Shown here: positions 18,740 through 61,916 of the stretch, piece after piece
How positions within the stretch are numbered: position 1 is the first letter of the stretch
Layout: each line of letters starts with the position of its first letter
From: Leptolyngbya sp. 'hensonii'
GTDB lineage: Bacteria; Cyanobacteriota; Cyanobacteriia; GCF-001939115
Assembly: GCF_001939115.1 (NCBI RefSeq)
Contig: NZ_MQTZ01000049.1
Coordinates: 1 to 64,000, forward strand
Reading direction: 5' to 3'
Length of the DNA stretch: 64,000 bases
Notes under the pieces: model-generated
Database searches by the model: none
Seen by the model: the letters and a program-made list of their open reading frames with translations, nothing else
Told to the model about the DNA's origin: nothing
Made by a program: the position numbers and the translations under genes

Positions 18740-18813
18740 AAGCAAGGTTGAAGCAGGTTAGCGGATACCGAACAACATCAATTCAGAAGAAGTTGACCGA
18801 GGAGGTTGGTATT

Positions 18814-19245
18814 ATGACTCTGATTCGCTGGGAACCGTTTCGGGAAATTGATACCCTTCAACGAGAAATGAACCGTCTCTTTGAGACACTCACTCCGACA
18901 ACACCCAACGGTACAGCCTTTGTGCCCGCAGCAGAGATGCGTGAAACGCCAGAAGCCGTGCTTCTGAAAGTTGAATTACCTGGCATGGAGCCCAAAGATC
19001 TGGAGGTGCAGGTGATGGCAGAGGCTGTCTCGATCAGCGGTGAACGCAAGACCGAAACCAAGACGGAAGAAAAGGGCGTGATGCGCTCCGAGTTCCGCTA
19101 CGGCAGATTCCAGAGAGTGATTCCTTTGCCGGTTCGAGTTCAGAACACCTCTGTTCAAGCCGAGTATAAGGATGGCATCTTAAACCTGACTCTGCCCAAA
19201 GCGGAAGAAGAAAAGAACCGAATTGTCAAGGTCAGCTTGAACTAG
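18814..19245 (+). CDS. hspA: Small heat shock protein Hsp20
   Basis: An ATP-independent holdase chaperone of the alpha-crystallin family, 143 residues. The start at 18814 (MTLIRWEPFREIDTLQREMNRLF) follows GGAGG by about 8 nt. The alpha-crystallin domain covers about residues 40-130 (LLKVELPGMEPKDLEVQV, then YKDGILNLTLPK). The C-terminal NRIVKVSLN contains the I-x-V anchor used in oligomer assembly. No CIRCE element was found upstream. It is followed by the dnaJ-like gene on the same strand, but a long spacer separates them. Confidence 0.94.
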   Translation: MTLIRWEPFREIDTLQREMNRLFETLTPTTPNGTAFVPAAEMRETPEAVLLKVELPGMEPKDLEVQVMAEAVSISGERKTETKTEEKGVMRSEFRYGRFQRVIPLPVRVQNTSVQAEYKDGILNLTLPKAEEEKNRIVKVSLN

Positions 19246-19402: not shown

Positions 19403-19474
19403 GGTTCGTTGGATGGAAGCGAGGATGGTAAGGTGCGATCGGGTGGAACCAATCCACCTTCAAACTAATGTTCA

Positions 19475-19569
19475 GTCAATGATTAATTGACGGATAGCCA
19501 AAATCGAGGCCATTGATTTGGGTTAAATTTTGCGGGTCTTCGACCCGTCAACATTTTCCTGACGGAACA
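19475..19569 (+). repeat. Dispersed 95-bp repeat, copy A
   Basis: The stretch aligns without gaps to 61475-61569, with 84 of 95 positions identical by eye. It carries the core hairpin CGGGTC-TTC-GACCCG and outer arms TTGACGGAT and ACCCGTCAA that can pair. It lies between hspA and the dnaJ-like gene, starting 163 nt before the dnaJ-like start. Confidence 0.8.
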
Positions 19570-19592
19570 GTAAACCGGGTCATGATTGAGTA

Positions 19593-19637: not shown

Positions 19638-20630
19638 ATGGCTGCGACCGACTTCAAAGACTACTATGCCGTTCTGCAGGTGAATAAAACTGCCAGCACG
19701 GACGATATTAAGAAGGCGTTCCGCAAATTAGCCAGGCAGTATCACCCTGATGTGAATAATAACAACCGGGAAGCAGAAGCACGATTCAAGGAAATCAACG
19801 AAGCCTATGAAGTGCTGTCTGACCCGGAAAAGCGCCAGAAATATGACCAGTTTGGTCGCTATTGGAAACAAGCGGACCAGGCTGGAGCCGCAGGCTGGGG
19901 AGGTGCCCCCAGTAGTGGGTTCGACAATTTCGAATTTGGCCAGTATGGGAGCTTTGAAGAATTTATCGATGCCCTGTTAGGGCGTTTCAATACCAGTACC
20001 ACTGCCAGTGGGTCACGGGCCAGTACAGGCCGATCGCGCACGCCGGGAGGATACGGCGACTTTGGGTTTGACGAGCGGGCTACTACCAGTGCCAGTTACG
20101 ATCGGGAAGCGACCCTAGCCCTGACCCTGGGGGAGGCTCTGCATGGTACCTCCAAGCGGTTGAGCCTGGGCACAGAGGTGGTGGAAGTCCGGATTCCAGC
20201 AGGCACAGGGGCCGGTAAACGCATCCGCCTCCGGGGTAAAGGTCAGCCCAATCCTTTTAATCAACAGCGGGGCGATCTGTATTTGATCGTAGACCTGCAA
20301 CCCCACGCCTTTTTCCAACTGGAAGGCGAAAACCTGACCTGTGAAGTGGCGATCGCACCGGATGAAGCCGTTTTAGGTGCTCAGATTGAAGTCCCCACAC
20401 CCGATGGGAACGTGAAATTAAATGTCCCGGCGGGAATTCGCTCCGGCCAGTCCCTGCGTCTGCGAGGGAAAGGCTGGTTCAAGGGAGATGGAACCCGGGG
20501 CGATCAACTGATCAAGATCGTGATCGTGCCCCCGAAGGACCTGAGTCCGATCGAGAAAGAGTGTTACGAAAAAATTCGAGCCAATCGGAGCTTCAATCCT
20601 CGCAGCCACCTCCAATCCGTCAAACTGTAG
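19638..20630 (+). CDS. DnaJ/CbpA-type co-chaperone (no zinc finger)
   Basis: An Hsp40 that stimulates DnaK ATPase and presents substrates. The start at 19638 ([13 protein letters not shown]) follows AGGAGGAG. The J domain (residues about 6-70) contains the essential HPD (QYHPDVN). A Gly/Ser-rich linker follows, then two C-terminal substrate-binding domains ([20 protein letters not shown] and [19 protein letters not shown]). There is no CxxCxGxG zinc finger, so it is CbpA-like (type II). At 330 residues it is normal. It lies downstream of hspA, as stress genes often do. Confidence 0.93.
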
Positions 20631-40701: not shown

Positions 40702-41634
40702 TTACGAATTCATGTCTGCTGAATTCACGTCATTCTCATCGTATGAAAAGTTATCATGCGGAAATTCCATGATAGAGGTTCGCCCTGAGGCGTTCAAACC
40801 AACCAGAGTCTTCAGGGGAAGGCTCACCAGAGACTCATCCCCCGCAGCCAAGGACAATCCAAACAAATGGCAGGCATTCTGGGTCGTTTGGGCTGCCAGT
40901 TCCTCAACTGAAACGCCGCGCAAACTAGCCAACTGTTCTGCGATATACTTCACATAAGCTGGCTCATTACGACGTTCGCCTCGCTTGGGTACTGGTGTCA
41001 GAAAAGGGCAATCTGTTTCAATTAATAAGCGATTGTTAGGCACAACCCGTGCCGATTCCTGGATTTGGGCTGCATTTTTGAAGGTGACCGTACCACTAAA
41101 ACTGATATGAAACCCCAGATTCAAAAACTGATAAGTCTCCTCTGGCGTTCCACCCCAGCAATGCATGACTCCTTTCAATGCGTCAAGGTCATGGGCAAGA
41201 CAAAATTCCTGCAGAATTTTAACCATAGCAACAGCGGCATCCCGGCAGTGAATAATCACAGGCAGGCTGAGGGCATGGGCAATCAGCAACTGTTTCGTAA
41301 AAGCAATCTCCTGCTGCTCCCGGTTATCTGCCTTGTAAAAGTCCAGACCCGTTTCACCAATGGCAACCACCCGGCGGTCAGAGTTTGCCAGATTGATAAT
41401 CTGTTCCTGAGAGCCAGAGGTCCATTGACCAACATCTAAGGGATGCAACCCCACAGCGAAAAACAGTTCTGGAAATCGATCGACCAAGGCACGGATCACC
41501 TCAAACTCTGATGGCTCGACGCAAGAATGGACCAGACGAACAACGCCTGCTTCACGCCAACGACGAGCTACAGCCTCCAGATCAGGCTGAAATGCATCAA
41601 AATTAATGTGAACATGTGTGTCTATCAACTGCAT
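40702..41634 (-). CDS. tatD: TatD family metal-dependent hydrolase (DNase)
   Basis: A TIM-barrel hydrolase with two metals; family members degrade DNA 3' ends and act in repair. DTHVHINF (5-12), [29 protein letters not shown] and [10 protein letters not shown] carry the metal ligands. The 310 residues include a C-terminal tail of about 45 ([21 protein letters not shown]...) that most TatD proteins of about 260 residues lack. The order rpsT-tatD-rpoB seems to be a cyanobacterial neighbourhood. It stops 102 nt before the rpoB start. Confidence 0.93.
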
Positions 41635-41672
41635 GAGTTGCGTCTGCCCGATGCTCTCAGTTCAGCAGGAGA

Positions 41673-41757
41673 TAATTTGGAACAGCCATTAATTTGGAAC
41701 AGCCATTAATTTGGAACAGCCATTAATTTGGAACAGCCATTAATTTGGAACAGCCAT
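41673..41757. repeat. Five perfect tandem copies of a 17-bp unit
   Basis: TAATTTGGAACAGCCAT is repeated five times without change at 41673, 41690, 41707, 41724 and 41741. Degenerate aacagac/aacagcc pieces continue to about 41800. It lies between rpsT and tatD on the transcribed strand. Confidence 0.95.
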
Positions 41758-61172: not shown

Positions 61173-61490
61173 ATGCCTCCTCGCTGGCCCCGTCAACCCG
61201 ATCGCAAAGACCCAGCCTATCGCCGGTTAGACGATCGGATGAACTTTGCTGTCCATGTTGCCCTTTTTGCGGTAACCAATTCTGGTCTGTGGTTCTTCCA
61301 GCTTCTTAACCATGCTGGAAATACTGCCGCTATCTGGCCGATCACCCCCTGGATTACGGGAGGCTGGTTATTCATCCTGTTCCTGCATGCGGTCTATATT
61401 TTCAAGGTAGCTGACTACTCCTATGCTGCCGTCGAGATGGGGGCTCCCCCAGATAGCCCCCCGACTCGTGGTAAGTCAATCAATGATTGA
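61173..61490 (+). CDS. 2TM domain protein
   Basis: A 105-residue membrane protein with two hydrophobic helices (FAVHVALFAVTNSGLWFFQLL and WITGGWLFILFLHAVYIFKVA) of the 2TM-domain type. The N-terminus is basic (PPRWPRQPDRKDPAYRRLDDR). Its last codons and TGA stop lie inside the dispersed repeat copy B that begins at 61475, so the C-terminus (KSIND) is contributed by the repeat. Function unknown. Confidence 0.78.
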   Translation: MPPRWPRQPDRKDPAYRRLDDRMNFAVHVALFAVTNSGLWFFQLLNHAGNTAAIWPITPWITGGWLFILFLHAVYIFKVADYSYAAVEMGAPPDSPPTRGKSIND

Positions 61491-61569
61491 CGGGTAGCCA
61501 AAATCCAGGTTGTTGATTGGGGTTAAATTTTGCGGGTCTTCGACCCGTCAAAATCTTCCTGACGGAACA
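61475..61569 (+). repeat. Dispersed 95-bp repeat, copy B
   Basis: Matches copy A at 19475-19569 over its full length with 11 substitutions and no gaps. Here TTGACGGGT (61487-61495) and ACCCGTCAA (61543-61551) pair perfectly. It supplies the stop of the 2TM gene and ends 39 nt before the DUF3181 gene. Confidence 0.8.
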
Positions 61570-61607
61570 CTAGCTCTGCTGATTAATTCACCCTCGGAGG
61601 TCTGACG

Positions 61608-61916
61608 ATGGCACGATCGAACACGACTGAACTGCTGGAAGCTCTCGCCGCTGAGCTTGGCGAAAATATCTATCTGGATATTGCCAAGTGGCATCTCCAT
61701 CTGGAGAATGCCAAACTCCATACCCCTCTGGCTGAACAATTGTATCCCCTCTTAGCTGCTGGCCCCATTCAGGAGGATCAGGTCATCCGAATCTTAAGCA
61801 CCATTCCCGTCAAAATTGGCGGCGGCAAGAAAGAGATTCCTCTCGTGGATCTGCTCCCGATGCAGTGCCAGGTGACCTTGATCGATATCCTGGAGCGATT
61901 CCAGAAGGATCTGTAA
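61608..61916 (+). CDS. DUF3181 family protein
   Basis: A 102-residue soluble protein of a small cyanobacteria-specific family (TTELLEALAAELGENIYLDIAKWHLHLENAKLHTPLAEQLYPLLAA, then VKIGGGKKEIPLVDLLP). GGAGG lies 8 nt upstream of the ATG at 61608. Function unknown. The upstream 95-bp repeat sits where its promoter would be expected. Confidence 0.82.
   Translation: MARSNTTELLEALAAELGENIYLDIAKWHLHLENAKLHTPLAEQLYPLLAAGPIQEDQVIRILSTIPVKIGGGKKEIPLVDLLPMQCQVTLIDILERFQKDL

Follow-up and report, generated by a model that had tools for sequence, protein, structure and literature searches.

The repeat and its neighbourhood

The window, the whole 64,000-nucleotide stretch of Leptolyngbya sp. 'hensonii' contig NZ_MQTZ01000049.1 that was analysed, contains two copies of a dispersed repeat. 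In the preliminary description these were boxed as a 95-bp sequence at 19475–19569 and 61475–61569, and realignment bears out the match that was given for them, with 84 of 95 bases identical and zero gaps. The inner hairpin CGGGTC/GACCCG is present in both copies, and the longer arms that had been described do pair, in the alignment as well as in the fold computations. The element is wider than the original box at both places (Table 1). A repeat finder extends the pair to 109 nt with 85% identity. The unit consists of CTAG, 101 bp and a second CTAG, has imperfect terminal inverted repeats and contains no gene.

Copy 1 has an HSP20 gene (18748–19245) on one side and a DnaJ gene (ATG at 19638) on the other. 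Copy 2 is upstream of a same-strand gene for a DUF3181 protein (ATG at 61608) and overlaps the 3' end of a small ORF with a 2TM domain (61173–61490), the stop codon of which is within the element. Elsewhere in the window, a tandem 17-bp repeat, TAATTTGGAACAGCCAT, occupies 41656–41757 directly upstream of a minus-strand ORF (40702–41634), and a group II intron match (RF02001) is present on the minus strand at 46–214, at the window edge.

Table 1. Features of the two copies, in window positions. For the terminal repeats of copy 1, the comparison is that of the consensus ends.
Feature	Position	Strand	Basis
Putative MITE, copy 1, with flanking tetramers CTAA (left) and GTAA (right)	19465..19573	+	Ungapped with 28 other copies; host-genome match list
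Copy 1, left terminal inverted repeat, holding the GTCAAT..ATTGAC dyad	19465..19498	+	Family consensus ends against IS630 ends
Copy 1, hairpin 1, dyad within the left end	19475..19491	+	Columns 11–27; two-sided changes in 3 of 7 pairs in both alignments
Copy 1, hairpin 2, weak middle stem	19496..19524	+	Columns 32–60; two-sided changes in 4 of 6 (first alignment) and 5 of 6 (second) pairs
Copy 1, hairpin 3, palindrome around CGGGTCTTCGACCCG	19525..19556	+	Columns 61–92; two-sided changes in 4 of 14 and 3 of 14 pairs
Copy 1, right terminal inverted repeat	19540..19573	-	Host consensus right end against left end of the C33 IS630, 25 of 34
Putative MITE, copy 2, with flanking tetramers CTCG (left) and CTAG (right)	61465..61573	+	Ungapped; 97% to family consensus
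Copy 2, left terminal inverted repeat	61465..61498	+	20 of 34 to both reference IS left ends; 22 of 34 to the G189 IS right end
Copy 2, hairpin 1	61475..61491	+	Stem count and fold
Copy 2, hairpin 3	61525..61556	+	Stem count and fold
Copy 2, right terminal inverted repeat	61540..61573	-	26 of 34 bases shared with the C33 IS630, left end

Copy number and distribution

The host genome (5.94 Mb, 77 contigs) has 47 matches to the element at E≤10. At E 1e-12 or better there are 35 places, some of them partial, so the repeat goes well beyond what chance would give and is not confined to two copies, as the preliminary description had allowed that it might be. The remaining matches are short, weak or self-palindromes; 40 of the 46 first-look candidates were scored, and no reading frame is reported for the host matches. 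Two arrays of three copies are found in the host, at C3:114936–115253 and C43:56881–57198, with starts 105 bp apart and a single CTAG shared by array neighbours.

Among 388 genomes of the class, the element is present in 16 at E≤1e-6, with the host counted, and these carry five family labels. First-look candidate places, of which two per genome were scored outside the host, number 176 in G121, 162 in G016, 104 in G189, 90 in G132 and 61 in G154. When up to 3 mismatches are allowed, a pattern for the right end is found 73 times in G189 and 34 times in G154, as against 0 times for the reversed control pattern. Weak partial matches occur in G014 and G039, that in G039 being the end of an IS630 copy. 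In named genomes an exact pattern is found in nine stretches from four organisms: Leptolyngbya sp. PCC 6406, Leptolyngbyaceae cyanobacterium HOT.MB2.61, Leptolyngbyaceae cyanobacterium M33_DOE_097 and Petrachloros mirabilis ULC683. The consensus has no match in the plasmid and phage collections at E 1e-3. Terminal inverted repeats are found, though imperfect, as in the outer ends TAGTCTGTCAA and TGTTCTGTCAA of G016, compared by eye.

Some copies are modified. In one (L028, G000:C19:63571–63672) the loop of the inner hairpin is inverted, reading GGGTCGAAGACCC in place of GGGTCTTCGACCC. Another (L026 / L036, G000:C31:9145–9422) is broken by an insert of about 170 bp with imperfect inverted ends, GGCAACAATATACTT and GGCATTAATATACTT, and an apparent 8-bp duplication, AAAATTTT; by eye, this is a second, unrelated MITE-like element. 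Loci L103 (G298) and L105 (G203), from one genus, keep the right half alone with the same upstream gene end beside it, as if an insertion made long ago had been retained at a common site; the genes at L103, named by eye, are for a cytochrome-like protein and SecA. Right-half-only matches at L098, L103 and L114 were considered as IS ends and rejected, the adjoining ORFs being host-type genes.

Flanking sequences and empty sites

From several genomes 146 copies were gathered. In 28 of them no left end could be recognised, and the flanks were counted in the other 118. A check for target-site duplications had been proposed at the outset, and its result is that CTAG flanks the element left and right in 83 of the 118, a different tetramer does so in 2, and in 33 the two tetramers are unlike. 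CTAG is a scarce sequence in the 64-kb window, where 67 are seen and about 249 are expected from base composition. IS630 elements duplicate 2 bp (TA). A duplication of TA and one of CTAG give the same flanks at a CTAG target, therefore these copies cannot separate the two. The two concordant pairs other than CTAG, TTAG/TTAG and CTAC/CTAC, look like 4-bp duplications and compare with 0.26 such pairs in shuffles (p 0.026). One IS copy, flanked by GTAG/GTAG, likewise resembles a 4-bp duplication, and another (L210) has unlike tetramers.

Empty sites are found in G189. The joined flanks of L143 are identical to L131 at 116 of 116 bases and 99% identical to L206, an A run differing by one A. For L240, the joined flanks agree with L200 at 97.4% of 116 bases. 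Each empty-site copy (L131, L206 and L200) carries a single CTAG. These sites are in repeated sequences, L143 being, by eye, within another transposase-like gene. A CRISPR-like direct-repeat array, seen in translated repeats, is located beside this element-containing transposase-type gene (L143, 1–619). Further CTAG-edged sequences in G189 (L211, L238, L254 and L186) and G154 (L130, L134 and L148), namely CTAGTGGTCTGTCAAGAATTATTTTGTGGG, CTAGTGCAGATTGGCGAAAATAACCCGCC and CTAGTACCGCAGGGCGTAAATCAG, look by eye like other element families with the same target.

An IS630 subfamily with matching ends

In G189 a copy of the element has beside it a 1221-bp IS with CTAG ends, which begin CTAGTAGTCTGTCAA and CTAGTAGCTTGTCAA. 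Paired end matches in this genome led to it; the 1.2-kb element that these pairs themselves suggested was rejected, as it is two copies of the repeat around a host gene. Pieces of the IS match two Pfam models, HTH_32 and DDE_3, as well as transpos_IS630 of NCBIfam, with scores of 69.8 and 80.3 on the latter, for which the whole-protein cut-off is 100. The C-terminal part of this IS630-type transposase gives 34 matches in G189, and 30 are full length with 100% identity. The host has one relative of this IS, on contig C33, with 60% identity, a frameshift and an internal duplication; its pieces score 81.9 and 101.2 on transpos_IS630, one of them above the cut-off. The host genome yielded no intact autonomous partner; ends were examined there at 14 of 29 DDE_3 matches and many matches are at contig edges; in G154, ends were examined at 8 of 23. 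A PDB sequence search with the C-terminal part of the transposase gives no match.

Matches to both ends of the element are found at the C33 IS630 left end and at either end of the G189 IS630. When 14 ends of the element are compared with these three IS ends, 18 to 26 of 34 bases are identical, and 29 of the 42 comparisons are above the background maximum (20 or 21 of 34). This background is made of 2306 CTAG-starting 34-mers, with a mean of 11.3–11.4, after removal of 247 that resemble the element. The right end of the C33 copy matches poorly, at 13 to 19 of 34, with 0 of 14 comparisons above background. A candidate for the partner transposase, which the preliminary description had suggested looking for, is that of the IS630 subfamily: of 27 further IS loci of this subfamily, from a class-wide search, 22 have an end with at least 24 of 34 bases identical to an end of the element, the best being 31 of 34 (L292), and L290 has none at 19 or more. 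Scored in this way, the window, cut into 36 chunks with the element copies masked, reaches at most 21 of 34, and 22 loci with other IS630-type (DDE_3) transposases are at 19 or below, except L179 at 24. In G189, 5 of the 21 IS loci measured abut an end of the element; these come from 22 loci of the 34 matches, of which L213 gave no measurable ends.

At 1e-40 the IS subfamily is present in 65 of the 388 genomes, these being 8 of the 16 with the element and 57 of the 372 others (Fisher p 0.0017, relatedness uncorrected). A matching IS is not found in every genome with the element. The subfamily is absent at 1e-10 from G016, G121, G132 and G134, which include the two genomes richest in first-look candidates (G121 and G016). 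No matching end is present at the single DDE_3 locus of G016, nor in G154 at the locus of the one, distant subfamily relative (46%), where the best is 18. In such genomes the partner is lost, outside the assembly, or another IS. Its presence is not strictly defining for an IS630-derived MITE, as partners can be lost.

Gene context

The context of 85 entries was determined using rough ORF calls, with partial copies and array members counted. There are 25 convergent, 14 divergent, 23 sense and 17 antisense locations, with 3 inside an ORF and 3 incomplete. In both window copies the element has a gene on the same strand downstream, as the preliminary description had it, but this does not extend to the family: of the 79 entries that have an ORF on each side, 37 have the downstream one on the same strand and 42 on the opposite strand (p 0.65). 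The upstream ORF is on the same strand in 48 (p 0.07). There is no clear rule of orientation relative to genes.

Location inside ORFs is rare (3 of 85 entries, two from one array) when compared with background CTAG sites (229 of 370), which fits the removal of harmful insertions. A neighbouring ORF stops in the TAG of the element's CTAG in 20 of 79 entries; for background CTAG sites that are not in ORFs the count is 20 of 141 (Fisher p 0.046; the background is the sum of four samples, of which the window and the host loci partly overlap). As the ORF calls are rough, no claim is based on these stop codons.

Fold and covariation

Clustering of the 118 copies gave 31 representatives. The first alignment has 29 chosen copies from several cyanobacterial families, ungapped over 109 columns; L252, L261, L265, L267, L270, L147, L036 and L027 were left out of it, and copy 2 of the window, L046, L038, L111, L074 and L093 were added. 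This alignment favours covariation because L046, L038 and L074 were added for their paired changes. The count was therefore redone on a second set, made of 29 of the 31 representatives, without L147 (left end decayed) and L036 (interrupted).

In the first alignment 89.8% of the cells of the three stems are paired. Two-sided changes affect 11 of 27 pairs (4.9 in shuffles) and 26 cells (8.9 in shuffles). In the second set 87.6% of cells are paired, and there are 11 two-sided pairs (4.8 shuffled) and 19 cells (6.9 shuffled). Slid controls are lower on five of five measures in each case, a comparison that flatters the stems because they were drawn by eye on the same sequences. RNAalifold alone finds stems 1 and 3, with a small covariation term of -0.52 kcal/mol. 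The preliminary description had considered that compensatory substitutions might be lacking, and two-sided changes are found in both alignments. The covariation is real in count, and does not need an RNA.

Stem 1 is a dyad, GTCAAT..ATTGAC, that is also in the ends of several subfamily IS630 copies (L292, L064 and L302), not in all. Pairing of stem 3 is as good on one strand as on the other, at 0.94 and 0.94. DNA palindromes such as those at transposon ends account for the compensatory changes better than an RNA does, with the exception of the middle stem. In this stem 2, G-U cells outnumber A-C cells by 37 to 2 in one count and by 37 to 3 in another; with one copy per host (11 hosts) there are 44 Watson-Crick, 10 G-U, 1 A-C and 11 other cells. 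Of arbitrary stems placed on the alignment, 17% show a G-U excess as large, and the strand bias is not significant. A strand-specific RNA, proposed from this count, was abandoned on that control.

It is possible, if unlikely, that the entire three-hairpin fold is under selection across several families, the element then playing a part, as a folded single strand of DNA or RNA, in how it spreads or survives. This is suggested by the fixed length, the lack of gaps and the compensatory changes in all three stems. Stem 2 would be the telling part here, because it is not explained by the ends.

A cis-regulatory or other functional RNA, repeated by chance and kept for its fold, is very improbable. 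The changes in all three stems would suit it, as would the fold z-scores of copy 2 (-3.46 as DNA, -2.38 as RNA). It is not needed to account for the repeat, since the left dyad is in IS ends, the right hairpin is strand-neutral and the orientation has no clear bias, and the 17% of arbitrary stems that match stem 2 also count against it. No Rfam family reaches its gathering score at the element, the sole match of copy 1 at E≤1 having a score of 10.7 with a cut-off of 50, and promoter and terminator scans show no pattern at either window copy. The cis-regulatory RNA suggested in the preliminary description is therefore not supported.

Interpretation

The element is very probably an IS630-driven MITE family of cyanobacteria, about 101–105 bp in length with imperfect inverted ends of about 34 bp. 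This is the most likely reading because of the copy number, the CTAG flanks, the empty sites and the match to the subfamily ends. The MITE that was one of the early suggestions is thus upheld, including in its inverted ends and its unit of about 105 bp. Directly seen are the copy number, the boundaries, the flanking CTAG, the empty sites, the matching ends and the IS next to copies of the element; the steps of transposition, a transposase acting in trans and the origin of the arrays are inferred.

Judged from the sequences, mobilisation in trans by an IS630 transposase is the most likely route. A transposase of the IS630 subfamily with like ends would bind both ends of the MITE and excise it. 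The excised element would be inserted at the TA within a CTAG, leaving a CTAG on either side. Each insertion would then have two CTAG sites, at the edges of the element, that may act as landing sites for further elements. Insertions that leave such edge sites would account for the tandem arrays sharing one CTAG and for the IS abutting a MITE.

The repeat had also been suggested to be REP-like, that is, a palindrome moved by a single-strand transposase (IS200/IS605 or RAYT), and REP-like elements are tied to a Y1 transposase. The strong palindromes close to both ends are of this kind, and such an enzyme could use the constant CTAG on either side for targeting and cleavage. REP-like elements are described in PMC3733652 as short palindromes of 20–40 bp, whereas the copies here are 105-bp units. 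Their two ends are mutually inverted and match IS630 (DDE) ends on both sides, which makes a REP-like origin scarcely credible on this comparison with DDE-type elements.

There is next to no probability that this is the MITE of another DDE family, IS5 or IS701. IS5 targets YTAR, which CTAG fits, and IS701 makes 4-bp duplications, at which the few concordant flanks other than CTAG hint. The search covered the IS701 type, where the one DDE_5 locus of the host, L090, has no matching end (best 19 of 34), and the IS630 ends match clearly. An IS701-type partner was rejected on a search of G000 and G016, each with one DDE_5 match and no matching end within 4 mismatches; the G016 locus stops within the gene at a contig end.

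As an IS630-driven MITE, a repeat that could otherwise be read as regulatory RNA is now explained, and annotators of Leptolyngbya-like genomes gain a defined element with exact ends. One 105-bp architecture is found in several families, which makes this a handy system for the spread of a gene-less element between hosts and its survival beyond its transposase. The tens of copies in some genomes, in some of which no matching transposase was found, add to its usefulness.

Comparison with known systems

No description of the present family was found in the literature searched, and as far as these searches show the family is new, with Nezha compared by description only; its kind is ordinary. MITEs of Anabaena sp. 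90, which are likewise non-autonomous and cyanobacterial, are reported in PMC3542288 as having no match to the IS ends of that genome. Nezha is another non-autonomous element of cyanobacteria, said to be moved by ISNpu3-like elements (PMC3049150), and may be the same family.

ISY100 of Synechocystis, of the IS630/Tc1/mariner group, is a cyanobacterial member that displays the IS630-type mechanism, as described in PMC2170065: the transposase acts on the inverted ends and a TA target is duplicated. The likeness to the present element is one of description, not of sequence. For IS630 itself, a title cited in PMC2170065, 'Preferential transposition of an IS630-associated composite transposon to TA in the 5'-CTAG-3' sequence', gives the same target, TA within CTAG. 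Unlike the MITE, IS630 is an autonomous element, and it is from another bacterium.

The closest analogue is RUP, the Repeat Unit of Pneumococcus. According to PMC3049150, this is a tightly folded repeat of about 107 bp, present in high copy number in Streptococcus pneumoniae, with ends that resemble those of IS630-Spn1, an IS630 element. RUP differs in the phylum of its host, whereas the present MITE has CTAG flanks as a rule and a 109-column architecture that is ungapped in the 29 chosen copies from several cyanobacterial families. By description rather than by sequence, the two share a similar length, a high copy number, IS630-like ends and a tight fold.
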